This document shows, in pieces, positions 11,103 through 29,796 of a DNA stretch of 55,955 bases. The notes beneath the pieces were generated by a model. It worked only from the letters and a program-made list of their open reading frames with translations, ran no database searches and was not told the DNA's origin. The DNA lies in IMG/VR virus record IMGVR_UViG_3300020055_002530, positions 1 to 55,955 of that record. One strand, written 5' to 3'. The translations under genes were made by a program, and so were the position numbers. Source of the stretch: a virus. Position 1 is the stretch's first letter. Each line of letters opens with the position of its first letter.

Positions 11103-11131
11103 ATACTACTTTCTATATGTGTGTTTGTCAA
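11103..11131 (-). promoter_or_regulatory. Sigma-70 promoter for the UV endonuclease gene
   Basis: On the minus strand TTGACA (11126-11131) and TAGTAT (11103-11108) are separated by 17 bases, just upstream of the ATG at 11096. Confidence 0.7.
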
Positions 11132-11922
11132 CCCCAATGTTTTTTAACCCAACTATCATTTGCATCTGCAGGATTGGGATCTCCGTGGAACACTGCAATG
11201 CTTGTGTGTCTGTTAATACGTGGTGGAGCATCTATTACAAAATTACGTTTTCTTGTGTGAGTATCTATTTTCAAATCTCGCCTATCACGCATTTCCCATT
11301 TGTAACTCATTATCCATTCATCAGGCCAAAATTTATGATCTTTGATATTTGCAAACATCCAATCTTGGTCTCCTCTATGCCTACCCATTTCTCCTCCAGT
11401 GTTGTTGTAAAACCGTCTCCATTTGTCATCATACTTACCTATTGGTATTCTAAAAACACTGCTGTTCATTCTATCCCAACGTTGTCTAATACTCCTGTTA
11501 AAATCTCGACAAATTACAAATTCACCAGTTTCATACTCAAATAGTTTATCAATATTTTTAAAAATAATAACATCTAGGTCTACAAATAATAGTGTACCTC
11601 TAATAGGCAAATCTCCTCCTAAAAACATCGGTTTATACCACCACCCCTGGGCTTGAAGTTTTGGTAAGCCAAATGTTTGTATATTAGGATCTAATCCTGA
11701 TTTATTTTCAGTGAAACAAACAAACTCGTGATCAATTGTGCAAAATTTTTGTGTTTGTTTATAGAGCTTATTGACATACTCTGCTGAGTATTTGTCTCCC
11801 CATTTTAAGCAAGCAATGTAATTTTTTTTCGTGCTATCTTTAATTAACTTTGCTTGCTTTTCTTTTGCTTTTCGTGCTTTACGTTCTGCTTTAGTTTCAC
11901 CTGGAATTATATTTTTAGGCAT
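11128..11922 (-). CDS. Glycosyltransferase-like protein with DLD motif
   Basis: The 264-residue protein starts with a Lys-rich segment (ETKAERKARKAKEKQAKLI) and then has a Rossmann-like core. GTLLFVDLDVIIFKNID is the nucleotide-sugar and metal binding D-x-D region of GT-A fold glycosyltransferases; GWWYKPMFL before it and HRGDQDWMF after it (a GDQ motif) fit GT8/GT-A-type enzymes. The acceptor is unknown. An ATG at 11922 overlaps the end of queD by eight bases and is preferred over an upstream GTG at 11961, although neither has a strong Shine-Dalgarno. Confidence 0.7.
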   Translation of the reverse strand: MPKNIIPGETKAERKARKAKEKQAKLIKDSTKKNYIACLKWGDKYSAEYVNKLYKQTQKFCTIDHEFVCFTENKSGLDPNIQTFGLPKLQAQGWWYKPMFLGGDLPIRGTLLFVDLDVIIFKNIDKLFEYETGEFVICRDFNRSIRQRWDRMNSSVFRIPIGKYDDKWRRFYNNTGGEMGRHRGDQDWMFANIKDHKFWPDEWIMSYKWEMRDRRDLKIDTHTRKRNFVIDAPPRINRHTSIAVFHGDPNPADANDSWVKKHWG

Positions 11923-12364
11923 CGTGTTTATATATTGCGCTGTTTGCTCCGTGTTCTGCACACTCTACTTCAACGCAACTACAACGTCCGTTTGTCATTT
12001 CTTGCACAAGTTCATTTGCTTGTTTCCACGCATGATATGCAAACTTTTCTACACCTACACCATCAAGTACTGTAAGTTCAGCAAGACCTTTTTCTTGTAA
12101 ATCTTCAAATGTTGCCATTTCAGGATCTTCTTTGTCTAATACAACCTTGTGATCAAATGTATCTTCGAGCCAGGCTTTTAGTGGTTTTAGTCCACCAAAA
12201 TCAACTACCCAGTTCTTTTCATCTAATTCGCTTGCTGCAAATGTAAATTTAAATTGCAGACTATATCCGTGTAAAAATCTGCAATGGCTATGTGCTTTAG
12301 GTTGTCTAAAGCAGGCGCTTAGTCCGATGTTGTGCCCATATGTTTTTGTGCTATAGTAACTCAT
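11915..12364 (-). CDS. queD: 6-pyruvoyl tetrahydropterin synthase / QueD family
   Basis: A 149-residue member of the PTPS/QueD family, which makes 6-carboxy-tetrahydropterin on the route to preQ0 and 7-deazaguanine. The histidines in KAHSHCRFLHGYS (about residues 23-35) match the zinc ligands and catalytic Cys region; WVVDFGGLK (about 52-60) and the C-terminal VEVECAEHGANSA glutamate region complete the fold. I see no queC, queE or transglycosylase in the window, so the product may feed host tRNA queuosine or a phage DNA modification pathway encoded elsewhere. It has a sigma-70 promoter and a structured 5' leader. Confidence 0.88.
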   Translation of the reverse strand: MSYYSTKTYGHNIGLSACFRQPKAHSHCRFLHGYSLQFKFTFAASELDEKNWVVDFGGLKPLKAWLEDTFDHKVVLDKEDPEMATFEDLQEKGLAELTVLDGVGVEKFAYHAWKQANELVQEMTNGRCSCVEVECAEHGANSAIYKHDA

Positions 12365-12751: not shown

Positions 12752-12759
12752 TATTTATT
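12752..12759 (-). promoter_or_regulatory. Late-type octamer AATAAATA abutting a start codon
   Basis: AATAAATA on the minus strand ends four bases before the ATG at 12747, the same close arrangement as at 10014. It overlaps the end of the 392-residue gene, so chance occurrence is possible. Confidence 0.35.
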
Positions 12760-13933
12760 TTACACATTTTAGAATAATAGTATCAGAATTTAGACGTCCG
12801 TTTAGTTTAATATCTGTTGTTTTAATATCATCCATAAACTTGCGAAGTGCAACCTTACCTGCTTTCTTAAACTCTTTGAGTGTATCAGCAGGTTTGCGTA
12901 GTGTTTTTTGTACACTGGCTTTTTCATCATAAAATTGTAGCCCGGCGCCTTTTACTTGTAGTGTAGCGTGATCTGCTGCAACATATTTTCCAAGTTTACG
13001 AGTTTTTGTATTGTACACCCAAACTTCTTTAGCATCTATAATTTCAAGTGGATTAACACTAACAAGTTGTAGTTTATCATCACGTTCAAGATATTTTAGT
13101 TTTGCAATCAGTTTCTCTTTACTTGGTGCTTTCTTTGCACGAGGCTTACGACTTGCTTTTGCAGCGTCTATAACAACATCACAAGCACCGTGCAGTGTCT
13201 CTAATGCTGTGAGATAATTCTTAGCATCTTGTTTTGTAAGATGCCCGTATGCTTCTCTAAGTTGTAACATCATATCTGCTTCACGTTCATCTTTACAACG
13301 ATTAATTTCACCTGGTGTTGGTAACTTTTGTATTAATCTTGCTTCTTCAAGTTCTCCTGAGTACAAGCCTTTAATTTTTCTTGCGTGAGCCTGACTTACT
13401 TTATATTTTGCAAAATGACTTGTAAAATCAAATCCTTTAGGATCAAAATCTTTCTTGTTTGTAATAAATCCATCTAGCCATTCTTCAATAGCATCACAGG
13501 CTTCGATTGCTTGATCACGAATACGTTCTTGAATGCTAGGAACATATATATTCTTTTTTGATTTTTCTTCTGCTTTCTTTTCTTCTACAACTTTAGCACC
13601 TTCTTCTGCCAAGCCCATTACCCATTTATCAAATTTACCTACATAACAATCTGGAATCAAATGCGGGTGATGTTCTTCACAATAAGCAGCAAGTGCATAA
13701 TGGCTCTTCCCACCAACCTTCCAGTCTGGTAGCTTGTTAATTGCAGCAACAACTTTCTTGTCGTATTTCTTTTTAATATATGTTTTGCAGACATTCAACC
13801 AATCCTTTGATTCAATTTCATAGTGAACAAAGTAATGAGCACCTAGCCAGGTTTTGGTCGGCATAAGTTCCCAAGGACTGCCTCGACGTTTAGCTCGTGC
13901 TGATTTCTTTTTAACCTTGGTTGCTCTTGCCAT
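12755..13933 (-). CDS. Conserved phage protein of unknown function (392 aa)
   Basis: The N-terminus is very basic (KVKKKSARAKRRG), followed by a mixed alpha/beta protein with a Lys/Glu-rich linker near residues 108-126 and a second basic linker near 262-275 (KASRKPRAKKAPSKEK). It has no domain I can name; the composition suggests nucleic-acid association. A sigma-70 promoter with TTGACT and TATAGT and an AGGAG site precede it, suggesting early or middle expression. Confidence 0.75.
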   Translation of the reverse strand: MARATKVKKKSARAKRRGSPWELMPTKTWLGAHYFVHYEIESKDWLNVCKTYIKKKYDKKVVAAINKLPDWKVGGKSHYALAAYCEEHHPHLIPDCYVGKFDKWVMGLAEEGAKVVEEKKAEEKSKKNIYVPSIQERIRDQAIEACDAIEEWLDGFITNKKDFDPKGFDFTSHFAKYKVSQAHARKIKGLYSGELEEARLIQKLPTPGEINRCKDEREADMMLQLREAYGHLTKQDAKNYLTALETLHGACDVVIDAAKASRKPRAKKAPSKEKLIAKLKYLERDDKLQLVSVNPLEIIDAKEVWVYNTKTRKLGKYVAADHATLQVKGAGLQFYDEKASVQKTLRKPADTLKEFKKAGKVALRKFMDDIKTTDIKLNGRLNSDTIILKCVK

Positions 13934-14827: not shown

Positions 14828-14856
14828 GTTATAGCAAATAGTTTTAAGGCTGTCAA
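14828..14856 (-). promoter_or_regulatory. Sigma-70 promoter for the phosphoesterase operon
   Basis: TTGACA (14851-14856) and TATAAC (14828-14833) are 17 bases apart; the transcript would lead into 14809-13978. Confidence 0.7.
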
Positions 14857-15671
14857 CCTAAATTATAGTCACGAGCTAATTGTCTTACCCACATCTGATG
14901 TGCTTGATGCAAAGGATGTAAGCCTGGACCTAATGGATGACCTCCTTTTGCCCATTCATAAAATCCTTCTTGTGGAAACTTGTCTACGTAGTAAATTTTG
15001 TACTCATCAATTCTTTCTAGAATATTATCAGTATAAAAATCTCTTTCATAAGGGTCATTTGTATTTTTGTAATAAAAATGGTCTCCAAAACCAAAACATT
15101 GTATACTTTTAATATCGTGTAATTTCAAAAATAAATTAACATATTCAATTTGTGTTAAACTATCAAAAGTATAATTAATAGGATGATTTAGATGGCCATA
15201 CATTGTATTACTCAAAGCAAATAAATTATTTTTTTCCAAAAATGTTTTTCTAGTATTGTTATTTGCAATAGCGCCAGTTGGTGATTTTTTTAAATTTGAT
15301 TTTGTGTCAGTAGGAAGTAAAGTGATAAAATTATTTTCCAAACTGTTTTTATGTATATTTGGATTATATTCTTGTGTTACCCTAATATCTCTACGATACA
15401 TACTAGTCCACATTATACATACAATTATGTTTTTTGCATTGTTAGTCTTTAACAAATCAGTTACATTTTTTACAACACGTCTTGCAATGCTATAATTACT
15501 ACTTCCTGTTGTAGCTCTGCTCATAAACGTGTAATCTTGAAAAAAATTTTTGTGTAATATTGCACTCCAAACAGTGTCGCATTCTTCATACCCTGTATCA
15601 GGATTTATTCTCCAAGAGTTGTGTTCTGCTCCTGCCATTAAACTGCATCCATCACTATATAAAATTTTCAT
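14853..15671 (-). CDS. SGNH/GDSL hydrolase-like protein A
   Basis: The N-terminal YSDGCSLMAG resembles block I with a candidate nucleophile serine; ATTGSSNYSIARRV (about residues 52-65) matches the block with the conserved Gly/Asn; the C-terminal LHPLHQAHQMWVRQL supplies the histidine of block V. SGNH enzymes are mostly esterases, including O-acyl esterases and transferases acting on glycans. It is the most complete of three related proteins here (with 16647-17375 and 17372-17974). Its ATG overlaps the stop of the adenylate-forming-like gene (ATGA). It is AT-richer than the structural genes. Confidence 0.65.
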   Translation of the reverse strand: MKILYSDGCSLMAGAEHNSWRINPDTGYEECDTVWSAILHKNFFQDYTFMSRATTGSSNYSIARRVVKNVTDLLKTNNAKNIIVCIMWTSMYRRDIRVTQEYNPNIHKNSLENNFITLLPTDTKSNLKKSPTGAIANNNTRKTFLEKNNLFALSNTMYGHLNHPINYTFDSLTQIEYVNLFLKLHDIKSIQCFGFGDHFYYKNTNDPYERDFYTDNILERIDEYKIYYVDKFPQEGFYEWAKGGHPLGPGLHPLHQAHQMWVRQLARDYNLG

Positions 15672-16657
15672 TTAAATTTCCTAAAGATTAACAGAGAATC
15701 ATCATTGTTTGTATTTGTAAAAGCAGCCCATTTTACAATTTGCTTTTTGTATTTGGCCTTTAGATATGAATTCATACTTTTTACTTTTACTTCGGCAACA
15801 TTTGGATCAACATCAAAATTAAATTTAAAATATAATTTATCGTTATCTAAAAGTATTTCCCCATCTATATTAAATCTATCAGGAATATAACTAAGTGTTT
15901 TTTCAATGTTTATACCTTTTGTACTTTTAGATTCACACACTCCGTTGTCATAACTCATAATTTTTACTTTTTGTAAATCAACACCTCTATCTTGACAACT
16001 AATCCTAAAATATTCCACTGATTTTAATGTAGGTAAAAACACACAATTAATATCATATTTTTGCACCACGTGAGAAATTTTATCAATTCCTAATTTCATA
16101 TCATTGTATCCCAATGAAAAGTGTGCCTGAACAGGAGTGCATAAAGATGGAAAAAGAAATTTACACAATAAAGGCCTATTAGTGTAACGGGTATGTAAAA
16201 CATTGCCATGAATATTCATTTTCTCAAAATTATTCGTTAATGGCTCGTCAAAAATTAAACTTGTGCCTTTTTGTTTGTATTCATAGTTTTTACTGAATTT
16301 TAAATCAGCCAAATCAAAATAGTTATAATTTTTAATTTGGTGAAATCCAAAAACATCTAGTTCACTATCTGCTAACGTGTGTATAATTAATTCTGGATCT
16401 TTATCCACTATGTTAAAGTCACATTCTATTGCGGCAAAACACACTGCAATAGTGTCTAGGCTGGTTTGATTAAAATGCAATTGTATATTTGCGTTAGGTT
16501 GTAATTTACAATACCCTAAGAAAATATTCTTCCAATGATCAATCCTGTTAAACAGGGTTTGTTTTTTTACGCCTGTTTCTTCCATAAATCCACTGCGGAA
16601 GTTAAATTCATTTGTTTTGTAAAGAAAGTCGTCTCTTATAATATTTCTATTCAACAT
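15668..16657 (-). CDS. Divergent adenylate-forming (ANL)-like protein
   Basis: No confident family match. The 329 residues nevertheless follow the order of an acyl-AMP ligase core: an N-terminal SLDTIAVCFAAIECDFNIVD segment like the helix-strand 'F.A.L.AG...V', then GTSLIFDEP, GNVLHTR and LGYNDMKLGIDKISHVVQKY followed by INCVFLPTLKSVEYF, like 'fdp..l...i.ky.vt...f.pt'. The usual phosphate loop (TSG..G.PK) is not visible and the C-terminal lid is reduced, so if it belongs to this superfamily it may not be an active ligase. It overlaps both neighbours, which are SGNH-like genes. Confidence 0.4.
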   Translation of the reverse strand: MLNRNIIRDDFLYKTNEFNFRSGFMEETGVKKQTLFNRIDHWKNIFLGYCKLQPNANIQLHFNQTSLDTIAVCFAAIECDFNIVDKDPELIIHTLADSELDVFGFHQIKNYNYFDLADLKFSKNYEYKQKGTSLIFDEPLTNNFEKMNIHGNVLHTRYTNRPLLCKFLFPSLCTPVQAHFSLGYNDMKLGIDKISHVVQKYDINCVFLPTLKSVEYFRISCQDRGVDLQKVKIMSYDNGVCESKSTKGINIEKTLSYIPDRFNIDGEILLDNDKLYFKFNFDVDPNVAEVKVKSMNSYLKAKYKKQIVKWAAFTNTNNDDSLLIFRKFK

Positions 16658-17375
16658 AATTTAATTTCCTTAGATAACCTTCTAAACGATTTGCCCACGC
16701 TTGATGACCATCAGCTAAAAAATGCCAGCATTCCGTTTTTTCATAACCCCAGTGCATGAGATACTGTATCATCACAAAATCTAAATCAAAAGGTTCTATG
16801 TATTTGTCTAAATTGAGTTTATCTATAATTTTTTTGTTAATGTCTAATCTAGGCATTGGTTCACAAGTATTACTCATCAAATAAGGTATATTATAATTTT
16901 CAAAAGTGCATTGTAATGCATAAGCCCAAGTTGCCCACCTTAAAGATTCTAGTTCTAAGTCTATTAGGTAAGGTGTATAATCTAACATTTTGGATATTCT
17001 TTTATCAGCAAATAAATTTGGGTTTGTACCTACAGTGAATGGTACACTTTTTAAATCAATATAATCGCCAAGTGTTTTATGTGTGAAACTACTGTTTTCA
17101 GTATAACGAAATTCACAACGTAATCTACTAGTCCAATTTACCAAAAACAAATACTCGTTGTTTTTGTCATAATGATTAGTAATATATTCTATTGCACTAC
17201 GTTGTATGTATTGGTTACTGCCTCCTGGTTTGCTTATGTTTACAAGTTGATATCCAAATTTATTTGCAAGCATTGCAGGAAAACCATTCCTAACATTATA
17301 TTCACTACTGCCATTTATACCATCAATCATACTACCGTTTGTATGACTACAACCTAATGCAACTAATATTTTCAT
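16647..17375 (-). CDS. SGNH/GDSL hydrolase-like protein B
   Basis: The N-terminus MKILVALGCSHTNG holds the presumed nucleophile serine (about residue 10), GGSNQYIQRSAIEY (about 51-64) the second block, and LADGHQAWANRLE near the C-terminus the Asp/His pair. This GCSHT type of SGNH protein is frequent in marine phage genomes, where its substrate is not known. It overlaps the following gene by 11 bases and is coupled to the preceding one by ATGA. Confidence 0.68.
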   Translation of the reverse strand: MKILVALGCSHTNGSMIDGINGSSEYNVRNGFPAMLANKFGYQLVNISKPGGSNQYIQRSAIEYITNHYDKNNEYLFLVNWTSRLRCEFRYTENSSFTHKTLGDYIDLKSVPFTVGTNPNLFADKRISKMLDYTPYLIDLELESLRWATWAYALQCTFENYNIPYLMSNTCEPMPRLDINKKIIDKLNLDKYIEPFDLDFVMIQYLMHWGYEKTECWHFLADGHQAWANRLEGYLRKLNYVE

Positions 17376-17974
17376 AGAACAAAACCTGCTGTAATTTTTT
17401 GTTCTAAAAACTCACTCCATCTTATATGAGCAGATTCATCTAAAGTAGAATACTTTTCTTTTTCTAAAAAGTATTTCATACTAGAATCTTTGTTCAAAGG
17501 ATTGTGGTATTTTCTTGCATTTATTGCTTTTAACACACCTAGTGTTTTATCATTAAACAAAATACAATCTTGTGTATTATACATATAATATTTGATATTG
17601 GCTTTTTTTAAAACTTGTTGTACCAAAAATGCTTCTGTTGCCCAATGTTGAGACAACAATAAATCATTAAAAATTACATCATCAAAATTGTGTAAACTGT
17701 TAATACCATTATCATTGTATTCTCGTAATTCAGGACGATAGGTAAAAATTTTATCTTTCCACCAAACTTCTCTACGCTTAGTGTTTGTCCAACCTATAAG
17801 AAAAAAATTGTTGATATTATCTTCTAGTGAATATTCTATAACTTTTCGGAATATTTGATTATTACAAGTATCAATTTCTGCAACATCGCAAAAATTATAA
17901 CCTAAACTTTCAGCGAGGTATTTTGGTGCAGCATCTCCTTTCACTAACTCGTCGCCAAAACTTATTAGATTCAA
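17372..17974 (-). CDS. Degenerate SGNH-like protein C
   Basis: This 200-residue protein is a paralogue of the two SGNH-like neighbours: FLIGWTNTKRREVWW corresponds to FLVNWTSRLRCEFRY in protein B and AHIRWSEFLEQ to GHQAWANRLE. The nucleophile block reads ISFGDELVKG without serine and the second block is TCNNQ in place of GGSNQ, so it is probably catalytically dead or altered. The start is taken as TTG at 17974 (TTGA overlap with the upstream stop) because AGGAG lies seven bases before it; the longer frame from TTG at 17992 has no such site. Confidence 0.6.
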   Translation of the reverse strand: MNLISFGDELVKGDAAPKYLAESLGYNFCDVAEIDTCNNQIFRKVIEYSLEDNINNFFLIGWTNTKRREVWWKDKIFTYRPELREYNDNGINSLHNFDDVIFNDLLLSQHWATEAFLVQQVLKKANIKYYMYNTQDCILFNDKTLGVLKAINARKYHNPLNKDSSMKYFLEKEKYSTLDESAHIRWSEFLEQKITAGFVL

Positions 17975-19308
17975 AAATAATCTCCTATCCAAGGTATATA
18001 ATCGTGTATACTAATTTTTCTAAATTTATCGCTGGCATTTGTATTATCAATAAAAACTTGCCAGTCTCCTTCGTCAGGTTCTTGATTAAGAACATTTTTT
18101 AAATTAATAATGTTTTCAACTGCCCACTGTTCCCAATCTGGAAGTTCAGCTGCTTTAAATCTTGCATACTGTTCTTCCAACATGGTATTCATTAAATCTT
18201 TGCGCTCTTGTGGTAAGTTTCTTATATTTAAATATCGAGGTTGTTCTACTATATTAAAGTGAGGTAAGCAATTTTGATATCCAAAATTTCCCCACGCCCA
18301 TGTATAATGCCATTCATCATACTGTTTCTTACACCAGTCTAGCAAGTTAGGCAAGTCGTGCATATTCAACAAGCTCAGTGTGACGTGTGTATGTACAAGA
18401 ACACCTTTACGTGTAGCACTAAACTCTTTTAGTTTTTGTACATTACGTTCTACAATCTTCCACTTGCTAGGATGCCTTACATAGTATGCTAGGTCGCCTA
18501 CAGCATCAATACTAAGGCTAAGTATTACACCACGGAACTTGTCCCAAATGTTTAGCAGTCTGTCTGGTATGGTTGTAGCATTTGTGTTGTAATGTAGCTC
18601 AATGTTTTTGCTCCAACCTTTGTCAATAATGTGTTCAAGCCAAGCATAGTGTTCTTCAACAACTAACGGTTCACCTCCAATAAAGTTTATCACACGTACA
18701 TTGGGCAACACATCATCATAGAAGCCTTCTGCAAATGCACGTACAAACCAAGGATTTTCACTGCTTAGTTTTGCAATATGATATGCAGTTTTATCCCAAT
18801 CAGTGTGCGGAACTGTTGGTCCTTCTTCAATCCATCTATGACTTGCCCAAGGATTGCAACTACGACATTTTAAATTACACACATTACCTAAACTAATATC
18901 CAAGTATGTAATTGCTTCTGGATTAATGCTACCATCTTCATTTAAATTTTTTAATGTTTCGTCAATATGATCTTCGTATATTTCATTCCACGTTTGTCTA
19001 AAACTACGTATTCCTTGCTCTTCAAGTCCGAAACAACCTTTACATCCATCAGGCACATCGTCACTCATAAGCTGTTTACGTACTTTCATTATTTCAGGAT
19101 CGTTTATAAAATCAAACAAATTTTCTGCATTTTTATTCCCGTGATGTTTCCATTCGAAAATATTGTTTATTTGCACACCAGGCATATAAGTATTGGTATT
19201 CATTCTACTAAAGCAACAAGGTCTTGTTCTACCATGACCGTGTGTGCTAAATCCTTGATTTGCAAGATAACAATAATTTTTTGGTAATTTATCTAATTTT
19301 TTCTGCAT
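17971..19308 (-). CDS. Radical SAM protein with N-terminal twitch domain (1)
   Basis: The radical SAM cluster motif is CNLKCRSC (around residue 150). N-terminal to it are further cysteines (YCYL, RPCCF, CKGCFGLEEQG), the arrangement of the twitch-type radical SAM family in which the auxiliary cluster domain precedes the barrel. INFIGGEPLVVEEH is the GGEP SAM-binding motif. The ATG at 19308 is chosen because it overlaps the previous gene by 20 bases, as elsewhere in this operon; a longer frame (to 19383) would overlap much more. The substrate is unknown. It is the last of six radical SAM genes in a row. Confidence 0.8.
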   Translation of the reverse strand: MQKKLDKLPKNYCYLANQGFSTHGHGRTRPCCFSRMNTNTYMPGVQINNIFEWKHHGNKNAENLFDFINDPEIMKVRKQLMSDDVPDGCKGCFGLEEQGIRSFRQTWNEIYEDHIDETLKNLNEDGSINPEAITYLDISLGNVCNLKCRSCNPWASHRWIEEGPTVPHTDWDKTAYHIAKLSSENPWFVRAFAEGFYDDVLPNVRVINFIGGEPLVVEEHYAWLEHIIDKGWSKNIELHYNTNATTIPDRLLNIWDKFRGVILSLSIDAVGDLAYYVRHPSKWKIVERNVQKLKEFSATRKGVLVHTHVTLSLLNMHDLPNLLDWCKKQYDEWHYTWAWGNFGYQNCLPHFNIVEQPRYLNIRNLPQERKDLMNTMLEEQYARFKAAELPDWEQWAVENIINLKNVLNQEPDEGDWQVFIDNTNASDKFRKISIHDYIPWIGDYF

Positions 19309-20281
19309 ACTCTGGCCTTGCTTTACTAATGTTAAAATCTGCTGCACAGTGACAATGTGACTTTGGACACCAAACACCGTCACTCATTGTTGTATTAAAC
19401 TCGCCTTGTACAATATTGCCTACAATAGGACCTACACCACAACTTGCTTGCTGTATGCGTCCGTTAGGGTGTATATGCAAACTTTCGTGTATATTGCACA
19501 GCCAACCTTGGAAGAAGTTTTTGCCTTCTGTAATAATACTATTGGTGTTAATAGGTTCAATAGTATCATCTTCAAACCAAGTTTTTGCCCACGCATAACT
19601 TGGGTCCTTTTGCACAGGAATAGATTGCTGCTGCACAGTGCTGTTGGTTTTAAAGAAGTCCATTTGCCATTGTTCATTATAATGATACGGATCTGTGCTA
19701 GGACGTAATTCGTCATATACAGGTGCATATTCTATCATATAGTTGTCACATTCTTCTCTAATTCTATCTCCAAAATCAATACATTGTTGGAAATACTCGT
19801 GATGCATCATTATACGTGAACACAAATAGTTTTTCTTATCTTGCAAAAATTTATACACTTCTATGTATTTGTCATCTTTACTCCATTCTGCATGATAGCT
19901 TGCAACAATATCCTCAAACAAATGATGATTTTCTTTCCACCAACTCAACGGTTTACTAAAATTAGTATTAATACCCACACAACTTCCTGGCCATTTTGCG
20001 TGTTCTCTAAACTTCTCTACAACAGGAATTAATGCTTTCCAAAAGGTCGGTTCGCCTCCACTAAGATATAATTTAAAATATTCATATCCTTTATCTTTAT
20101 AATGCAACATAATTTTTTCTAGTGTATCTACTATCAAAGGAATATCATGATCGTTTCGGTTTCTGCCTGCCCAATTCCATTCACTACAATATGTGCAACG
20201 GAAGTTGCACCAATCGTTGACTTGCCAAACTATACTTACCCATTTATCTTTTGCTGGGATAATTGCTTTTATGTCTTGCAT
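19289..20281 (-). CDS. Radical SAM protein (2), canonical order
   Basis: Unlike its neighbours, the cluster motif CNFRCTYC comes early (about residues 26-33), with YLSGGEPTFW as the GGEP motif near residue 69. The C-terminal third is cysteine- and histidine-rich (WLCNIHES, QQASCGVG, CPKSHCHCAAD), consistent with one or two auxiliary clusters. The overall layout recalls SPASM/twitch enzymes that modify peptides or sugars. The 330-residue length is complete. It overlaps both neighbouring genes. Confidence 0.82.
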   Translation of the reverse strand: MQDIKAIIPAKDKWVSIVWQVNDWCNFRCTYCSEWNWAGRNRNDHDIPLIVDTLEKIMLHYKDKGYEYFKLYLSGGEPTFWKALIPVVEKFREHAKWPGSCVGINTNFSKPLSWWKENHHLFEDIVASYHAEWSKDDKYIEVYKFLQDKKNYLCSRIMMHHEYFQQCIDFGDRIREECDNYMIEYAPVYDELRPSTDPYHYNEQWQMDFFKTNSTVQQQSIPVQKDPSYAWAKTWFEDDTIEPINTNSIITEGKNFFQGWLCNIHESLHIHPNGRIQQASCGVGPIVGNIVQGEFNTTMSDGVWCPKSHCHCAADFNISKARPEYAEKIR

Positions 20282-21477
20282 ACGTCTTCCAATATGTAAT
20301 TAAGTGTAGGAAATATATCTGCAAAATTGTATCTTCTATACTTGTCGTTGATTGCAATAAATTGTTTCATACGTGTAATGTTTTCTGCAGAATATTTATT
20401 AGTATTCTGTGTGTAGTTAATGATTCTTTGAACAGCGTCTGCGTGTAATTTTGTTTCTAGTGTAAACAACTTGCCTATTACTTTGTGTTGTATTTCTCTT
20501 GGCCATACGCAACTGTGCAGTTGATCAGGGTGTTCGAGAAAAATAGGCACAAAGTCTACACGTCTAGTTTGACGTTTTTCAAGCCAACGAATTAATCTGT
20601 CTACATCAAACACATTCCACGCTTGATAGACAAAGTAAATTTTTAGTTGTACTTTTTCAGGCAACCGCATTGCTTTATCAAAGTTTTCTTCTACTTTGTT
20701 CCAATCTGTAGGATAACGTATATACATATTATGATCACCGTATCCATCAATGCTCATCTGCACTTCGCTTGAATCAAAGAAGTCTAGTTTATCATAGAAT
20801 CCTTCTGGCCATGTTGTCATATTAGTAGTCCAAGCTACATGACATTTAGTATTACCTACTTCAACAAGTTTATCTAATACATATTGATTTGCTTGTATTA
20901 GTGTAGGCTCACCACCTGTCATATACAAACGTTCTAATGTTGGTGCCACTGTATCTACAAAGTCACGGAACTCTTGTGTTTCATACCATTGCCAATCGTG
21001 TGCTTCTACACTACGTATTTCGTGTTGCCATTGATCATTCAACCAGTCTGGCACAGTTTCATTTGCTAGTATTTTCTTACGTTCTTTGTATATGTTGTCG
21101 CTGCTTACACTCCAACAACTGTTACACTTTAAGTTGCAGTGATTTCCGAGACGTAATTCCAGGTGAGTAGGATTGCTATGCAGTAATGGTTGTTTATAGT
21201 TTTTATTAGCCCATTGCCTACTACTTTCAAGACCTTTTTCTTCGTGCTCGTAGCAGCGACTACATTCTTTAACAGGCTTGCCTGCTAACATATTGGCACG
21301 AACATTTAACATATATTCACCGTTCCAAATATTTTCCCACTTGTCTTTACCAAGTATAGCATCGTGTCCGTCTGCTTGTATGTAATCTTCACTGTAAACA
21401 TGGCAGCACAACTTACATCTGCCGTCTGTATTTGTATGCACATTTATAAATGGGTATATACAAAAGGTATTACTCAT
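20269..21477 (-). CDS. Radical SAM protein with N-terminal twitch domain (3)
   Basis: The N-terminal cysteines FCIYPF and CKLCCH, then CSRCYEHEEKG (about residues 79-89), precede the radical SAM motif CNLKCNSC (about 116-123) and MTGGEPTLIQ (about 187). The family has the auxiliary Fe-S domain in front of the barrel. The start at 21477 gives an ATGA overlap with the preceding gene and aligns with the paralogues (MSNTFCIYPF against HFCMMPW), so the longer frame to 21504 is rejected. Confidence 0.82.
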   Translation of the reverse strand: MSNTFCIYPFINVHTNTDGRCKLCCHVYSEDYIQADGHDAILGKDKWENIWNGEYMLNVRANMLAGKPVKECSRCYEHEEKGLESSRQWANKNYKQPLLHSNPTHLELRLGNHCNLKCNSCWSVSSDNIYKERKKILANETVPDWLNDQWQHEIRSVEAHDWQWYETQEFRDFVDTVAPTLERLYMTGGEPTLIQANQYVLDKLVEVGNTKCHVAWTTNMTTWPEGFYDKLDFFDSSEVQMSIDGYGDHNMYIRYPTDWNKVEENFDKAMRLPEKVQLKIYFVYQAWNVFDVDRLIRWLEKRQTRRVDFVPIFLEHPDQLHSCVWPREIQHKVIGKLFTLETKLHADAVQRIINYTQNTNKYSAENITRMKQFIAINDKYRRYNFADIFPTLNYILEDVCKT

Positions 21478-23633
21478 ACTGTCCACTTGCCTTTGCCTTT
21501 CCAATCATACTCGAAACTAAAATCTAAATTTCTAGTAACTAAAAAATCTTTTTCGTGTTGTGTGAATGTATCAACATCATAAGCATTGTAAGGATCTCTT
21601 TTTGCTTTATCAGTACCTTTCCACGCTAACTTACGTGCTCTAATAACACTGTTGCTGTTATCTCTTGTGAAATCCATAATACTCCATACTGGGCTCCAAG
21701 GGTCTGGACTCATTTTCATAGCACCGTTTTCTATCCAGTATTTGTCATTCCAATCTGTGTATTCGTCTTGTTCATAGTTCCACCAAAAGTCAGCAGTCCA
21801 ATTTCCATCATCGTCTATTTCAAAATCGTATTCTGCATTCAGTGGAGCAGCATTACGCTCACCCCATTCTTCGTATTCCCATTCTTTTTTGAATTTAAGA
21901 TTGAGTTTATATCCACCACGTGTTCTCCATACAACACGTAAGAACGGCCATATTTCGTTTACAAGACTATCTGCAAAATTACTAATGCCCGGTTTAATAA
22001 TCTCATAATCAAAGTCGTCATAATCATAACGTGCTTCTAGTTCTTTGTCAGGATCATTGAACTCAATATCATAATGAAACTTTGCTAAATTATGTCTAGT
22101 AGGTTTGCTACAAATTTTTTCAGTGTTTAAGAAATCTGTAAAAATACTAAAACATTTCATTCTTATAAGTTTGTGGACAATGCTAAGTTTATGATCTTTT
22201 GTAATCCAATGGTCATAATAGTAAAAAGGAGACAAATTAAATTTGTCGAAGTTTTGTCCTACAATAGTATCAACACCAACACTGAATCCTGTGCCTTGAC
22301 TTATAGCAATTAATCCTTGATCTTTAATACGATATAAAAATGTAAGAGTATCTTCTAATTCTTTTGGCCCTTCATTAGGAAAGCCTACAATCCAATTGGT
22401 CATTGCATCGATGCCCACTGCATAACCATCACTAAAGTTGGCTTCCATTTCTTCAACAGTAACTTTCTTGTCCATTAAGTCTAGCACAACTTGACTACCT
22501 GACTCGATACCATAATTAAGAACTTCACAGCCACCTGCTTTTAAATCTTTGTAATAATCCAAGTCCATACGTCCATCACAACGACAATAACCTGTCCAAT
22601 GTATATCTAGTCCTTTTTCTGCGACACCATTTACAAATGCACGTAACTCATTAAGATTACCATTAACTAAACTATCAATAAACCAGTAAACATTGGTTCC
22701 GTGTTCATAATACATATGTTCTATTTCTTGTACAGTGCTAAGTGCATTACGCTGTCTATATTTCCAAAAGTGTGTTTCTTCACAAAACGTACATTTAGCA
22801 ATACAACCACGTGATATTTCACACAAGGCACCGTTAGGAAATAGATAGTTACTAAAATCAAAATCGCTATAATCTGGCAAAGGCAACGTGCTGAGATTAT
22901 ATCTTTGATTTTCAGGTTGTCTAATAATTTTACTTTTTTCTTCTTCTGTGTAATCTATACCTTTTTTATTTTCTATACTTGCTAACGCTACTAGTAATGG
23001 TTGTTCGCCTTCACCATTAACAACGTAATCAAAAAGATTATCTCCTTTGTAATAACTGCTGTGTGTGCTAGGACCACCTACCATTGTTACTACATTTGGT
23101 AAACGCTTTTTTATCTCCATTGCCATATATTTTGTTGGTGCTGTGTTACAGTAATATAAAGTAAATCCTACAACATCTGGCTTGAAGTCTACTATTTGTT
23201 GAATTTTTTCTTGTAATAAAGGTTCTAGATGCGGATGAATATCATCGTAATAATGTTCTTCTAACCAATGCCAATCACGTAGAGGATCCCACGGATTAAA
23301 ATTAATAGGCCATTTTTCTTCATGATATATTCTGTACGATTCAACATTGATATCAAAACTTTTGACTGCATAACCTGCACGTTTAGCTGCACTAGCTAAT
23401 TTAGCTGTATTATAAGGAGGAAAGCTAGGATCCCATTCAGGCAATAGACAAAGACAAAGTCTAGTTTTCCTGTTGACTTTGTATTCTATTTCTAAATTAT
23501 CTAATCCTTTTTGTACAGGTTTGCTGTATTTTGCAATTGCTGCAAGAGTGGCTACGTGTTTATCTTCAGCTAAAGTTCCTGTAGGTCTTTCAGGAATTTT
23601 CCTGTTTTTATCTTTTTGGTCAAAAAATCCCAT
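21474..23633 (-). CDS. Radical SAM protein with B12-binding-like N-terminal domain (4)
   Basis: This 719-residue protein has an N-terminal region (about 57-220) like the cobalamin-binding fold: LLPEWDPSFPPYNTAKLASA, FKPDVVGFTLYY and VTMVGGPSTH. The radical SAM motif CIAKCTFC follows (about residues 277-284), with GIESGSQVVLDLM downstream. A canonical DxHxxG is not visible, so cobalamin may bind in the base-off mode or not at all. The C-terminal 200 residues are rich in Trp, Tyr and acidic residues and belong to no domain I recognise. Class B enzymes methylate, rearrange or oxidise unactivated carbons. Confidence 0.82.
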   Translation of the reverse strand: MGFFDQKDKNRKIPERPTGTLAEDKHVATLAAIAKYSKPVQKGLDNLEIEYKVNRKTRLCLCLLPEWDPSFPPYNTAKLASAAKRAGYAVKSFDINVESYRIYHEEKWPINFNPWDPLRDWHWLEEHYYDDIHPHLEPLLQEKIQQIVDFKPDVVGFTLYYCNTAPTKYMAMEIKKRLPNVVTMVGGPSTHSSYYKGDNLFDYVVNGEGEQPLLVALASIENKKGIDYTEEEKSKIIRQPENQRYNLSTLPLPDYSDFDFSNYLFPNGALCEISRGCIAKCTFCEETHFWKYRQRNALSTVQEIEHMYYEHGTNVYWFIDSLVNGNLNELRAFVNGVAEKGLDIHWTGYCRCDGRMDLDYYKDLKAGGCEVLNYGIESGSQVVLDLMDKKVTVEEMEANFSDGYAVGIDAMTNWIVGFPNEGPKELEDTLTFLYRIKDQGLIAISQGTGFSVGVDTIVGQNFDKFNLSPFYYYDHWITKDHKLSIVHKLIRMKCFSIFTDFLNTEKICSKPTRHNLAKFHYDIEFNDPDKELEARYDYDDFDYEIIKPGISNFADSLVNEIWPFLRVVWRTRGGYKLNLKFKKEWEYEEWGERNAAPLNAEYDFEIDDDGNWTADFWWNYEQDEYTDWNDKYWIENGAMKMSPDPWSPVWSIMDFTRDNSNSVIRARKLAWKGTDKAKRDPYNAYDVDTFTQHEKDFLVTRNLDFSFEYDWKGKGKWTV

Positions 23634-24868
23634 TACATTATTCCTTGTAATTCTGGGAATATTTCATACACATTTTCGTTACGCATACCATCCATTTTGT
23701 TTGTTTTCCAGTACCACATTTTTAATTCAGATGTTCTATCTTGTTCCATAAATTGCAAAATGTTTTTGTAGTCCTGTATCACACTATCTATATTTTTTAA
23801 TTTTTCGTTTTTATTATTATCAAACTGTTTCAAATAGTTAATATGTTCTTCATATCTTTTATGCACTTGTTCTTTTATCCAAGGAGGTAATATGCTTAAA
23901 CGCATATAAGTTGGATCCAATAGTATGTTAATTCTAATATTAGCAGGTTCTAATAATCCTTCTTCAATCCATTCTTTGTGGAAATCGCAAATGTTTAGCA
24001 CATTGTAAACACTTACAGTAGGAGTTAATTCAAAGTAAACGTGCGGACATTGCTCAATCATATCACGTCTATTTTGCACAACCTGTGTCCAATCCATATT
24101 TTTACGCAGATATTCTCCTCGCTTATGATTTGCATCTAAACTTGCTGCTACTCTTACATTATCAAACGCATTCCAATACTCAAATGCTGTTTTACGCTTG
24201 TAACGCATTTGTGTAAAGTTTGTGGTGTAGTCCATTGCTACATTACGTTTGCCCATTTCAATCCATTTGTCAAGTATACGGTAATGTTCATCTGTGATAA
24301 GTGGTTCGCCGCCAGCCCAATACACACGTTCAACGCTGCCTAACAATGGTTCAAGTTCGTCCATAAAGTTTAACATATCATCACGTACTTTGAGTATCTT
24401 ATTGTGTCCAGGATCTCCGTATGCTGCTTTGTGATCTTCAAACCAACTACTGCTGAACTGGGGTCCACAACTGCGACACTTTAGATTGCACAAGTTGCTA
24501 AAACGTATGTCTAGGTAAGCCATATTAACATCACCAGCACTGCCGTCATCGCTTGTAGCATCAACTTTGTCCCAATGGTTTTTGCCAAAATTGTTTATGC
24601 TACCTTGACGTAGTGTGCCCATTCCGTTTTCTTCTAGTTCGTAACAACGTCTACATTCTTTACTTGGTTTATCTTGCAACATATTCATTCGCAGTTCACG
24701 TATTTCAGGACCGTTCCAAATATCCTGTAAACTTTGTGTTTGTGTATCTCCCACAGGGTGAGCAGGATCGCTCATACAACAAGGATATGTAGTGCCAGCT
24801 GGCCACATATGTAAATGTATCCAAGGCATCATACAAAAATGTTTACTGTTTTTTAATTTATCAGACAT
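23633..24868 (-). CDS. Radical SAM protein with N-terminal twitch domain (5)
   Basis: The layout is the same as the next gene upstream: HFCMMPWIHLHMW and TYPCCMSD, then CRRCYELEENG, the radical SAM motif CNLKCRSC (about residues 128-135) and YWAGGEPLITDEH. It is closely related to proteins 1, 3 and 6, which suggests tandem duplication followed by divergence. It is joined to its neighbours by an eight-base overlap upstream and TAATG downstream. Confidence 0.82.
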   Translation of the reverse strand: MSDKLKNSKHFCMMPWIHLHMWPAGTTYPCCMSDPAHPVGDTQTQSLQDIWNGPEIRELRMNMLQDKPSKECRRCYELEENGMGTLRQGSINNFGKNHWDKVDATSDDGSAGDVNMAYLDIRFSNLCNLKCRSCGPQFSSSWFEDHKAAYGDPGHNKILKVRDDMLNFMDELEPLLGSVERVYWAGGEPLITDEHYRILDKWIEMGKRNVAMDYTTNFTQMRYKRKTAFEYWNAFDNVRVAASLDANHKRGEYLRKNMDWTQVVQNRRDMIEQCPHVYFELTPTVSVYNVLNICDFHKEWIEEGLLEPANIRINILLDPTYMRLSILPPWIKEQVHKRYEEHINYLKQFDNNKNEKLKNIDSVIQDYKNILQFMEQDRTSELKMWYWKTNKMDGMRNENVYEIFPELQGIM

Positions 24869-26081
24869 ACAAATCCTTTAGTTCTGGGAATACACGTAAA
24901 AAGTTTTCTCCACGCTTCAAATCTAACTTTTGCATTTCTTCTCTAAACTTTGGAATAAAATGACTGTCATCTTTACTATACATAAAATTTATAATATTGT
25001 CTATACCATCTTGCAAAAATTGTTTACGAGTAGGATAAATTATTTTTTGTTCATATAAAGATTCTACATCTTGTTTAAACAATTCTAAACTTTGCTTTGC
25101 TTTGTCTTTAATATGTTCTGGTAATATTGTTATACTCAACCATTCTGGCCCAACCAATATATTACTGAAGTTAATATCATAATCTGTAGGAATTTTGTGT
25201 TCATACAAAAACTTTACAATATCAGCCAAATCTAAAATATTAAGGACACTAATAGTAGGATTAGGTTGTATAATTACGCCTTTATCATAACTGTGATCAA
25301 AATTATCACGTATATAACAAAGATTGTTAAACACAGTTTCCCATGATTGTCCATTACGTGTGTATTCTGCTTTTGCACCCATTTGATCTAAACTAACACA
25401 ATAAAAGATTTTATCAAAGTGTTTCCAGTAATCAGTAATATGTTTTCCTTTAAGGCTTAGGCGTGTTGCGTTGCTGTTGTATGTCAGTCTCGGTTTGAGT
25501 CCACGCTCTATGAGCATATCTAGCAATCTATAATGCTGTGGCATAAACAAACTTTCGCCGCCTGTAAAATATACTTCTTCTATTGTAGGCAGTATTTCTT
25601 CTATTTCTTCCCACATCTCAGGATGGTTGATTTCTACTATTTCAGGTTTACCAACAATATCTTCAGCCCACTTGCTGCTGAAGTGCGGTCCACAACTACG
25701 ACACTTCATATTACAAAGGTTACTAAAACGTACATCAAAATATGCCAAGTTCATTTGTTCTACGCTACCGTCATCACTGGTGGTTTGTACCAAATCATAA
25801 TGATGATTGTATTCTGTGTTAAATTTGTGTCTATAACTTATAACACCTTGTTCTTCATATTTGATACACTTTTCACATCCTTGACTACTTACGTTGTTTA
25901 ACATTCGTAGCCTAAGCTCACGCATTTTTTCACTGTTCCATACTCCTTTGAAACCAGCTTCATTGATATTACCAACTGGCATATCCCAATGATAAATGCA
26001 GCAAGGATATGCATCTCCGTTTTGCCATACGCTCATATGTGTCCACGGAGCCATACAAAAATGTTTTTTAAATTCTGTCAA
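24861..26081 (-). CDS. Radical SAM protein with N-terminal twitch domain (6)
   Basis: N-terminal HFCMAPWTHMSVW, AYPCCIYH and CEKCIKYEEQG precede CNMKCRSC and YFTGGESLFMPQH. The usual GGEP is GGES here, a mild deviation. The preferred start is TTG at 26081 (TTGA overlap with the upstream stop), which leaves MTEFKKHFCMAPW, matching MSDKLKNSKHFCMMPW of the paralogue; the longer frame starts at another TTG (26120) inside the previous gene. Substrate unknown. Confidence 0.8.
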   Translation of the reverse strand: MTEFKKHFCMAPWTHMSVWQNGDAYPCCIYHWDMPVGNINEAGFKGVWNSEKMRELRLRMLNNVSSQGCEKCIKYEEQGVISYRHKFNTEYNHHYDLVQTTSDDGSVEQMNLAYFDVRFSNLCNMKCRSCGPHFSSKWAEDIVGKPEIVEINHPEMWEEIEEILPTIEEVYFTGGESLFMPQHYRLLDMLIERGLKPRLTYNSNATRLSLKGKHITDYWKHFDKIFYCVSLDQMGAKAEYTRNGQSWETVFNNLCYIRDNFDHSYDKGVIIQPNPTISVLNILDLADIVKFLYEHKIPTDYDINFSNILVGPEWLSITILPEHIKDKAKQSLELFKQDVESLYEQKIIYPTRKQFLQDGIDNIINFMYSKDDSHFIPKFREEMQKLDLKRGENFLRVFPELKDLYV

Positions 26082-27259
26082 TTTACTAACTCTACTATAC
26101 TGTCTACAATAGTATTCCAACTTATCTTACGAGATAAGAACAGTTTTTGGTTATGTATTAATTTATCAAAATATTCATTTTTGATTTTTGTTTTTAATAA
26201 GTCAATACGTGTGTTTTTTATATTGTGCCAAAGTTTCATTGCTTGTGTATAATCGCTGACTACACTAACTCCAAATAATTCTTCAAATGTTTCGTATCCT
26301 CTTGCTCTTAACAAACTATGTTGTTCAGGGTTGCCTACAATAAAAAACGGATGAAGATTCATTATTGCTTTATATGTCTTTTCTGTAATAAAGTTTTTAT
26401 GACTATCACTTTCTGTAATCACACTTAATATACTGTCATTGTAATAAGATTTTATACTATTTCCATAATTAATTACTTCTACCTTGTTTAAAACATCCAA
26501 TTTTCTATTGTACATTTCACGTACAAGGGCCATTTTAAAATCACTGTGTAACTCTTCAGGAATACGTTTTAATGTATGATGTGACTTTGCACAAGCATCG
26601 TGTTCCGTGCTGTCAACTTCGGGTAGGTTATAACTTACATATCCTTCATTGATAATATTACTTCTAAGTATACTATACATAAGCCATATTCTATGTGGTT
26701 TAATATTGCGGTTTAAACACAGAAATTTCTTAGATGCTTTATCAACATCAAATTCATCTGGATGAGTCAAAGATACATGAGGAAGTGTTTTGTGTTGATG
26801 CCTACTTAAACTTTCCCAAAAATTAATGCTGATATATTTTATTCCTTCTAAAGTTTTATTATGTGCTTCTAAATCACAACATAGAACTATAACTTTGTCT
26901 ATAGGTATTTTGTGCTTGTCAATTTCTCTACGCAATTCTTTTGGTTTAATAATACATTCAGTGACACTCACTAAACAATAAAATACATTTGGATCATTTC
27001 TTAACAATTTTAAAGTTTTTTTAGATGGTTGTAGGGTGACCCATTCCGGCATATGTACGATGTTTAAAATAAACTTTTTTGTATCTTTATCTAAAAAATT
27101 CAAATGATTTATATGGTAGAAATTACTATAGGTAAAATCATCATAGTGTCCAAACATATAATCAAAGGGCCTGTGATTTTTATCACCAGGTAAATCAAAA
27201 GTCAAACCACTGTAAGGAGTTTGTAGAATATTATCTACAAGGAAATAGCAATTGCTCAT
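26078..27259 (-). CDS. Glycosyltransferase-like protein
   Basis: The C-terminal half has SVITESDSHKNFITEKTYKAI followed by HPFFIVGNPEQHSLLRARGYETF, the donor-site layout of GT-B/fucosyltransferase-like proteins (E-K-x-Y and a following I-V-G). The N-terminal half has no clear motif. Such proteins recur in marine phages with the 'ITEKTYKAI' signature. It opens the radical SAM operon (ATG at 27259, weak Shine-Dalgarno) and overlaps the next gene by four bases at TTGA. Donor and acceptor unknown. Confidence 0.6.
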   Translation of the reverse strand: MSNCYFLVDNILQTPYSGLTFDLPGDKNHRPFDYMFGHYDDFTYSNFYHINHLNFLDKDTKKFILNIVHMPEWVTLQPSKKTLKLLRNDPNVFYCLVSVTECIIKPKELRREIDKHKIPIDKVIVLCCDLEAHNKTLEGIKYISINFWESLSRHQHKTLPHVSLTHPDEFDVDKASKKFLCLNRNIKPHRIWLMYSILRSNIINEGYVSYNLPEVDSTEHDACAKSHHTLKRIPEELHSDFKMALVREMYNRKLDVLNKVEVINYGNSIKSYYNDSILSVITESDSHKNFITEKTYKAIMNLHPFFIVGNPEQHSLLRARGYETFEELFGVSVVSDYTQAMKLWHNIKNTRIDLLKTKIKNEYFDKLIHNQKLFLSRKISWNTIVDSIVELVN

Positions 27260-27866: not shown

Positions 27867-28993
27867 GAGGGTGTCCACCTTTTTCTTGGAACAAGTTTTA
27901 CGTTTCCAAACTGTTTTGTAGATGTATCTGCATAACGTACTCGACCTTCACCATTTGTGTCCCAAATGTCTCCTTGTTCGCCTTCTAGTTGATCAATAAC
28001 TTCATCCTTCATACGTTGAATCATTTTTACAAGTTCAAATATAGCACCTGTCGCGCCTTTGAATTTTGTATTTAAATCAGCAATTTTGGCTTGTTTAGGT
28101 TTGCTTACTTTGCTACGCTCTAACCATTGAAAGAAATCTTGATCGCTTAAATTATCTAGTCTTTTTGCTTTTGCTGTTTGATTTACATATGTATATATGA
28201 TATTTTTTAAATCTGAAAGTCCAGGCACTCCTGCTAAGAAACCGTCGATTTGATCTTTGTGTTTTTGCACAAAGCCTTCAACTGTTTCAATAGCGCCTAA
28301 ATTTACTTGTATTTTTTGCTTATTATAAACAGGTCCTAAAACTATAAGATTATGGTTATTGTTAAACACACTAAAATCTTGCATAGGTTGTTGTGAGCTG
28401 TCTGGCATACCAAAGTCAGGAAAATATGCGTGACCTACTACCATAATGTTGGCTTTGCGAATTTGTCGGCCAAGATCACTTTCTGCTCTTACGTGATAAC
28501 AAGTTTTAGATTTTGGATTTGGACAGAATGTATAAACACCGTTTTCTTGTTTAGGTGGATCTAAAAACAAGCCATCTGCATACACAAAGCCAACAAAGTC
28601 TTTTGGTGTTGCACGATCAAAATCTTCGTATAAACTGGCAAATTTATTGCCAAACTCTTTACGTGCTTCTACTTCTTCTGGTGTTTTAGGATTGCCTGAT
28701 TTGTTTATGATAAAATCTGCAACTTCTTCTGGACTAGTAGCAGCAACACCTTTGGCCCAGGCATTGTGTCCTGCAAGTACAAGTGGTCCACCTTTTTCTG
28801 CACGACCCCAATAAATTTGTGGATTTCCGTCCCATTTCATACGTATGCTTTGCGCACCACTTTCTTGTGCCATATCTTCTAAATGTTCTAGTGCTTCTAG
28901 TGTGCCTGCACTGCCGTAGAAAAACACCAAGTCTTCTAGGTGATTAAATGCCCTACCTAATTGTTTTGCTTCAATCAGTTCTTGGTATCTCAT
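27863..28993 (-). CDS. Conserved T4-like marine phage protein (376 aa)
   Basis: The gene starts MRYQELIEA and contains AQESGAQSIRMKWDGNPQIYWG (K-W-D-G, recalling the KxDG nucleotidyl motif of ligases) with a later GFVYADGLFL and FCPNPKSKTCYHV. This protein is a familiar neighbour of the nucleotidyltransferase in T4-like cyanophages. Whether the KWDG lysine is a nucleotide-accepting residue is only a suggestion. It is linked by ATGA overlaps to both sides. Confidence 0.75.
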   Translation of the reverse strand: MRYQELIEAKQLGRAFNHLEDLVFFYGSAGTLEALEHLEDMAQESGAQSIRMKWDGNPQIYWGRAEKGGPLVLAGHNAWAKGVAATSPEEVADFIINKSGNPKTPEEVEARKEFGNKFASLYEDFDRATPKDFVGFVYADGLFLDPPKQENGVYTFCPNPKSKTCYHVRAESDLGRQIRKANIMVVGHAYFPDFGMPDSSQQPMQDFSVFNNNHNLIVLGPVYNKQKIQVNLGAIETVEGFVQKHKDQIDGFLAGVPGLSDLKNIIYTYVNQTAKAKRLDNLSDQDFFQWLERSKVSKPKQAKIADLNTKFKGATGAIFELVKMIQRMKDEVIDQLEGEQGDIWDTNGEGRVRYADTSTKQFGNVKLVPRKRWTPS

Positions 28994-29796
28994 CTGCTGT
29001 CAGCCAATCTATTGATAAGTTCTACGATTCTATTGTGATTTTTATCTGCTAGAGTAATAACACTTTCTGGTAGTTGCTTACCATCTTTGGCAAACTCATC
29101 TGCTGCTTTTGCTGTAAGCGTATCAAAATCTGGATCACCTCTAAGTGCTGTAATAATAGTTTCTACTGTATGAGTGTCCGACTCTTTAGCATTATTTCCT
29201 AACAATAACTGTGCTATTTCATTCCAGTCATCAGAAACAAATTCATTTGTTTCAGGATTTTGTAATCCAAACTTAGGACTAAATTTATATCCTCGTGCTC
29301 TAGCAATACTTGAAAGTAAGATAGCTCTATCTTTACCACTAAATGCTGCTGTACCTCCACGCTTTGCACCACGTTGAAAATCTGGATTGGTTGTGAACAT
29401 AAAGTCTGTTTGCACATACCCAACACCGCTTTGTATAGGAGTACGAAAATGTACTTGGTCACCTGCGTTATGAATCCAGCCAGCTGTAAATTTACGTCCT
29501 TGATTCATTATTTGATCTTCAGGTACACCATTACTTTTAAGCCATGCCGAAAGTTTAGCAATTAAATCTTCTTTGCTAACTTTATTTGCATCTGTGTTTA
29601 GATCTAAGTCTCCGGAACTGTTCTTTTCAAAAGACCCATCCGGATGATTTTTCTTACCAGTAGTTCCTAGCCAGTCTTCTTCGTCAAATGTTAAACCTGT
29701 GATTTTTTCTATGAACTGAATAGTTGGATGTACATCAGCAGTAGCAATACGCTGTGTAAGTGGTCCTTCATCTGTCTTAAAAACGTTTCCGCCCAT
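28990..29796 (-). CDS. Conserved T4-like marine phage protein (268 aa)
   Basis: It has a DLDLNTDAN segment (about residues 62-70), a nucleotidyltransferase-like G-D-x-D pattern (SGDLDL), and later QTDFMFTTNPDF (about 129). The acidic motifs in this order suggest a nucleotidyltransferase fold of the Pol-beta type, which would fit the neighbouring HxGH and KWDG proteins; this is inference. A late-type octamer and an AGGAG site stand in front. Confidence 0.7.
   Translation of the reverse strand: MGGNVFKTDEGPLTQRIATADVHPTIQFIEKITGLTFDEEDWLGTTGKKNHPDGSFEKNSSGDLDLNTDANKVSKEDLIAKLSAWLKSNGVPEDQIMNQGRKFTAGWIHNAGDQVHFRTPIQSGVGYVQTDFMFTTNPDFQRGAKRGGTAAFSGKDRAILLSSIARARGYKFSPKFGLQNPETNEFVSDDWNEIAQLLLGNNAKESDTHTVETIITALRGDPDFDTLTAKAADEFAKDGKQLPESVITLADKNHNRIVELINRLADSR

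Follow-up and report, generated by a model that had tools for sequence, protein, structure and literature searches.

A recurrent module of radical SAM genes in phages and its suggestive link to sugar genes

Introduction

The abundance of radical SAM genes in some phages has called for an explanation since at least 2010 (PMC2853527). The locus described here poses it in a concentrated form. In one stretch of viral DNA (an IMG/VR virus record of 55,955 bases from a large marine phage, hereafter the window), the ORF listing and profile searches reveal six adjacent, overlapping radical SAM genes on the minus strand, between positions 17971 and 26120. Do these genes and those that surround them constitute one pathway and, if so, what would its substrate be?

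Phages with many radical SAM genes have already been published. The Campylobacter phages CP220/CPt10 carry 11/12 of them, with an exchangeable five-gene module (PMC2853527); the T4-like marine genome TARA_ERS488813_N000010 carries 12, together with paaD (PMC5332604); and in pelagimyophages radical SAM cassettes are located in the host-recognition region along with tail fibres and glycosyltransferases (PMC7029224). In view of these three reports, the idea from which this work started, namely that marine phages are known to have radical SAM genes singly and that no set of this size is known, is out of date. What the present locus adds is a defined and testable module.

The Island and Its Genes

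The neighbouring genes of the island, A to K (Table 1), all overlap, every gap between them being negative. The radical SAM set comprises four proteins with an N-terminal twitch (E, G, I and J), one with a B12-binding domain (H) and a plain one with a C-terminal Cys cluster (F), and it is flanked by the GT-B-like K, the ANL-fold B and the SGNH-motif proteins A, C and D. The original prediction had recognized six neighbouring, overlapping genes with CxxxCxxC motifs, and all of them lie at the stated place, on the minus strand, with the profiles in agreement; the make-up that it gave (twitch in four, B12 in one, C-terminal Cys clusters in one) is borne out by NF033640, by PF02310 together with PF04055, and by the invariant Cys residues of F.

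Table 1. Genes of the island, with their positions in the window.
Gene	Position	Strand	Protein	Length (aa)	Evidence	Status
A	14853..15671	-	SGNH-motif protein, DUF6071	272	PF19547 29.3 bits (cut-off 27)	accessory
B	15668..16657	-	short ANL-fold protein	329	AlphaFold + Foldseek	accessory
C	16647..17375	-	SGNH-motif protein, DUF6071	242	PF19547 31.8 bits
D	17372..17992	-	degenerate paralogue of C	206	PF19547 14.2 bits (sub-threshold)
E	17971..19383	-	N-terminal-twitch radical SAM	470 as annotated	NF033640 321 bits
F	19289..20281	-	radical SAM, C-terminal five-Cys cluster	330	PF04055 30.5 bits	module marker
G	20269..21504	-	N-terminal-twitch radical SAM	411	NF033640 305 bits
H	21474..23633	-	B12-binding + radical SAM	719	PF02310 and PF04055	accessory
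I	23633..24868	-	N-terminal-twitch radical SAM	411	NF033640 396 bits
J	24861..26120	-	N-terminal-twitch radical SAM	419	NF033640 373 bits
K	26078..27259	-	GT-B-like glycosyltransferase-fold protein	393	predicted structure

The four twitch proteins match NF033640 (N_Twi_rSAM) across the full model, each of them above the curated threshold of 170 bits. C12, C30, C72 and C75 are invariant in an alignment of the I/J family, as is the C127-C131-C134 triad, and a profile search finds the SPASM-model Cys of I at the N-terminus. For each of E, G, I and J, the CxxxCxxC motif is present in 11 orthologs out of 11 and, for the radical SAM genes as a whole, in all the orthologs examined (10-11 per gene), so that its presence is far beyond chance. 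Mean identity to relatives reaches 71% for E, 82% for G and 78% for both I and J. E may truly start 25 codons further in, at the ATG with which the L017 homologue opens, and the start of J is probably slightly downstream of the annotated one. The name N_Twi_rSAM designates an architecture and not a function, and the literature yielded no substrate, product, activity or function for any NF033640 member; here four copies stand in one operon-like block.

F scores just over the cut-off of the Pfam family Radical_SAM (29.5 bits), and its residues C262, C281, C305, C310 and C312 are invariant in seven relatives, two of them bacterial, with a mean identity to relatives of 83%. In H, the B12-binding domain lies ahead of the radical SAM domain, both over cut-off. 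Beyond a distant profile match to TokK, none of the NCBIfam equivalog cut-offs was reached (best score 97.6 bits, vs 750 for ApyD), and an identity of the ApyD/PhpK/BchE type was rejected, the scores being far under the curated cut-offs. Because H is missing from several relatives (L017, L121, L122 and L175), we regard it as optional or accessory.

Among the three proteins initially described as SGNH-like, two look intact by their sequences, with Ser and His kept: in the alignments, A retains GCS and HPLxxAH, and C retains GCSHTNG and the C-terminal His pair. The third, D, is degenerate; GDE replaces its GxS, the C-terminal His motif is missing, and the protein is probably not a hydrolase. For A, C and D, comparison with PDB sequences gave no SGNH enzyme, and the PDB profile search returned chance-level kinase matches only. 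Few relatives carry A, which is 47% identical in the one comparison locus out of ten where it is found.

The two remaining flanking proteins were assigned through predicted structures. For B, thought to be ANL-like, it is the fold that stands: its AlphaFold model, of moderate quality (pLDDT 71, pTM 0.58), retrieves adenylate-forming (ANL) enzymes in Foldseek with an E of 4e-8 (417 PDB matches at E<=0.001, those listed being ANL). The protein is nevertheless short and without the AMP-binding signature, since no Pfam family at E<=0.1 and no PDB sequence match were found; it is 38% identical on average in three relatives and sits after C wherever it is present. The model of K is confident (pLDDT 85.7), and its top PDB matches in Foldseek are GT-B enzymes (E 5e-5), a fucosyltransferase among them, with TM values of only 0.30-0.40. 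Viral structures that match it comprise viral glycosyltransferases and a 788-aa viral protein annotated as a UDP-glucose/GDP-mannose dehydrogenase. The predicted fold is compatible with a glycosyltransferase-like K, by a partial structural match and with neither a Pfam nor a PDB sequence match. A second glycosyltransferase-like gene (11128-11961, minus strand; phrog_1962) is located about 3 kb from the island.

A Single Module

Scans seeded with I and with H retrieved 21 and 22 viral loci, respectively, and according to a tblastn map the order K-J-I-H-G-F-E is kept in nearly all the window-type contigs. As both scans had been seeded within the island, a further one was run from F alone, looking for the scattering in related phages that would have spoken against one phage-encoded pathway. 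The single-pathway proposal came through it well: a twitch gene lies within 6 kb of F in 64 of the 65 viral loci, the exception being a 20%-identity match. Most loci show the order G-F-E. Of the 63 that were scored, 35 have a G-labelled gene upstream of F and 16 an I-labelled one, and E comes after F in 58, directly in 50 of them and past one small ORF in the other 8.

Gene fusions add to this picture. Four of the long I-labelled proteins upstream of F were examined, and all four proved to be I-G fusions; a K-J fusion of 792 aa occurs in L022 and L025; and a 735-aa protein of L076 consists of a twitch enzyme fused with another radical SAM domain, F-like as judged by eye. Furthermore, related I-F-twitch clusters, in which an I-type and an F-type gene occur together, are found in bacterial contigs (L091 and L048), one of a Bdellovibrionales and one of a Deltaproteobacterium. 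Genes in the retrieved loci were called as the longest ORFs, with less certainty in GC-rich bacteria, and phage DNA that was binned with a MAG may account for some of the short "bacterial" contigs. By synteny and fusions, K, J, I, H, G, F and E form one module.

A different view would take the island as exchangeable radical SAM cargo, occasionally useful and not belonging to one pathway. Indeed, in the CP220 study the module is described by its authors as interchangeable and as probably dispensable (PMC2853527). For the present island we consider this improbable: the order is fixed, the genes overlap and fuse, and the Cys motifs are conserved over a large divergence, while the outcome of the F-seeded scan further weakens such a reading.

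Over up to ten comparison loci, mean identity amounts to 71-83% for the radical SAM proteins, 48% for K (vs 78% for I and J), 44% for C and 34% for D, and to 86% and 78% for the flanking L and M. Judging from these alignments, a constant chemistry with variable partners would fit the contrast, as expected of substrate-specifying genes. Outside the island, gene N (28990-29796, minus strand) shows 71-80% identity in two of nine relatives against 34-40% in the seven others, its neighbours being more even, a pattern that looks like allele exchange.

The family is far from confined to the window. A broader scan of viral contigs turned up at least 562 related sites, and the 67 loci beyond the nearest relatives present other layouts, several of them with four to six twitch genes plus SGNH-like genes. 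NF033640 matches number 6 to 22 in each of 15 large records, the two richest being of 328 kb with 21 matches and of 243 kb with 22, most of them over the cut-off; in jumbo phages, the expansion reaches about 20 copies. A search of 50,697 phage records with J, H, F and K yielded no close relative. In a contig of an Elusimicrobia MAG (L061, 25-16818), at least seven consecutive twitch radical SAM genes were observed, and the four that were scanned are all fused to TPR repeats.

What the Module Might Build

The reading that we favour, at roughly even odds (about 0.5), is that the island is a single pathway making or modifying an unusual sugar of a surface or virion glycan. Several layers of evidence point in this direction. 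The module of L046 is followed by a UDPG/GDP-mannose dehydrogenase, a Methyltransf_13/14 C-methyltransferase and an epimerase, and in the cultured Vibrio phage K566 GT8 appears twice around the twitch genes. A NodU-type carbamoyltransferase is present in 26 of the 67 large-phage loci, where epimerase and UGDH families are also encountered, and in L057, a Bacteriovoracaceae contig, a carbamoyltransferase is fused to a twitch protein. By the bacterial twitch genes, the commonest Pfam family is Glycos_transf_2, with the small count of 6 in 87 neighbours. The radical SAM module of CP220, too, ends in two nucleotide-diphospho-sugar transferases. Altogether, the sugar link of the island is suggestive, and the association with glycosyltransferases may partly reflect the abundance of these enzymes in large phages.

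In such a pathway, the twitch proteins I, G and E, along with F and its C-terminal cluster, would form the core, J would act together with K, and H would provide an optional step, perhaps a B12 methylation. K, in keeping with its modelled fold, would place or build the sugar, as a putative glycosyltransferase. The radical SAM proteins would take a hydrogen from the sugar or from a sugar-carrying intermediate, and so oxidise it, epimerise it or link carbons, while the poorly conserved SGNH-motif and ANL-fold proteins might tailor ester groups. The product would probably decorate the host surface, excluding rival phages, or else the virion. If so, radical chemistry would be a further way to arrive at the glycans of surfaces or virions, and phages would have a new means of altering recognition. 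More tentatively, the conserved radical pathway might make a not-yet-described type of sugar, to be installed on the host surface or the virion; this possibility would explain the presence of as many as some twenty of these radical SAM genes in large phages.

The substrate had been anticipated to be of the glycan, acyl or peptide type, and each of these options leads to a different reading of the same genes. If it were a peptide or a protein, the twitch proteins would be RiPP-like maturases acting on a phage structural protein or on a host protein. Many weak NCBIfam matches of the island proteins are peptide maturases, all far below cut-off; the fusion of twitch proteins to TPR repeats in one bacterial contig could mean a protein substrate; and in large-phage loci the cluster adjoins recurrent small phage genes, some of them perhaps structural. 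We nonetheless deem this unlikely. A precursor peptide gene conserved with the island had been proposed as something to look for, and within the island, where the search was made, no gap leaves room for one. Moreover, the PqqD-type domain PF05402 is absent from 22 records according to one PqqD model, the control being positive in three genomes, and the recurring neighbours are sugar genes, not peptidases, which favours the glycan option.

An acyl or lipid-like product that aids infection, made as a small molecule by the B12 radical SAM protein together with the ANL-fold and SGNH proteins, seems quite unlikely to us. B has a predicted ANL fold, at the superfamily level H is akin to B12 methylases and to hopanoid/ladderane enzymes, and a gene annotated as PagP is located near the K566 cluster; yet B, A and H are the very genes often missing in relatives, and no carrier-protein gene was found among the profile matches of the viral loci.

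Known phage DNA-hypermodification pathways include radical SAM and glycosyltransferase genes, and carbamoyltransferases lie near related islands, so the island might be asked to decorate phage DNA against restriction. This we judge very improbable. A thymidylate-synthase-like hydroxymethylase was not found in G000-G005 and G007-G010, nor any TET/JBP match over cut-off in 22 records, absences that are weak because all the records, like the viral relatives of the window in general, are fragments. The thymidylate-synthase-family model passes its cut-off in 4 of 22 records, three of them larger than 200 kb; G006 is the only window-type record with such a gene, which may be an ordinary one.

Known Systems and Phage Lineage

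In order to place the sugar-modifying module that we favour among known systems, likenesses and differences must be considered together. CP220/CPt10, large phages related to T4, have in common with the window that several of their radical SAM genes are adjacent, but the CP220 proteins are far under the NF033640 cut-off (best 31 bits), an amidinotransferase is present, and no B12 enzyme is annotated in the cluster. TARA_ERS488813_N000010 is alike by description, with its many radical SAM genes, and while it has paaD, a FeS_assembly_P gene is found near the L151 cluster here. Among cultured phages, Vibrio phage K566 has five twitch-type genes, two of them over the NF033640 cut-off, amid GT8 genes; however, in K566/K567 identity is 20-24%, and homologues of F, H and K were not detected by tblastn. 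The proteins of K566 and CP220 are only distantly related to those of the window.

Pelagimyophages, which are marine and T4-like, resemble the window in having a curlin-repeat gene: a 245-aa protein with a Curlin-repeat match is encoded at 54360-55097 (minus strand), and curli-like genes are reported in these phages (PMC7029224). The text of that paper does not define an I-G-F-E module, and none of the cultured pelagimyophages matched J, H, F or K. In open-access papers, supplements aside, we found no account of the fixed I-G-F-E module, its fusions, the scale of its expansion or its sugar link, and a published one may exist. With a marker gene (F), the fusions, the cultured phages K566/K567 and the bacterial counterparts at hand, the question is ready for the bench.

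As to the lineage, the gp23 test matched only G001 among 13 records, so that a T4 lineage of the window phage is unproved. The pelagimyophage host-recognition cluster lies between VrlC and the neck gene gp14; the gp14 model was found in 1 of 24 records, and a location of the island inside this cluster was not confirmed.

Other genes of the window, all on the minus strand, have relatives in several phage groups, the best matches being to Melnitz and to jumbo phages of the PA5oct type. A 2393-aa protein (1108-8289) locally resembles the tail-fibre proteins of cyanophages and of Pelagibacter phage Mosig. For another, of 681 aa (48292-50337), a protein of Methylophilales phage Melnitz, annotated with an adenylate/guanylate cyclase domain, shows 51% identity along the full length, and identity to Pelagibacter phage HTVC008M is 34%. 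Finally, the best isolate matches of a 392-aa protein (12755-13933) are jumbo Pseudomonas phages of the PA5oct type (36% over 66%), and PA5oct is also the best match of an RNaseH-like gene beside the L022 island.
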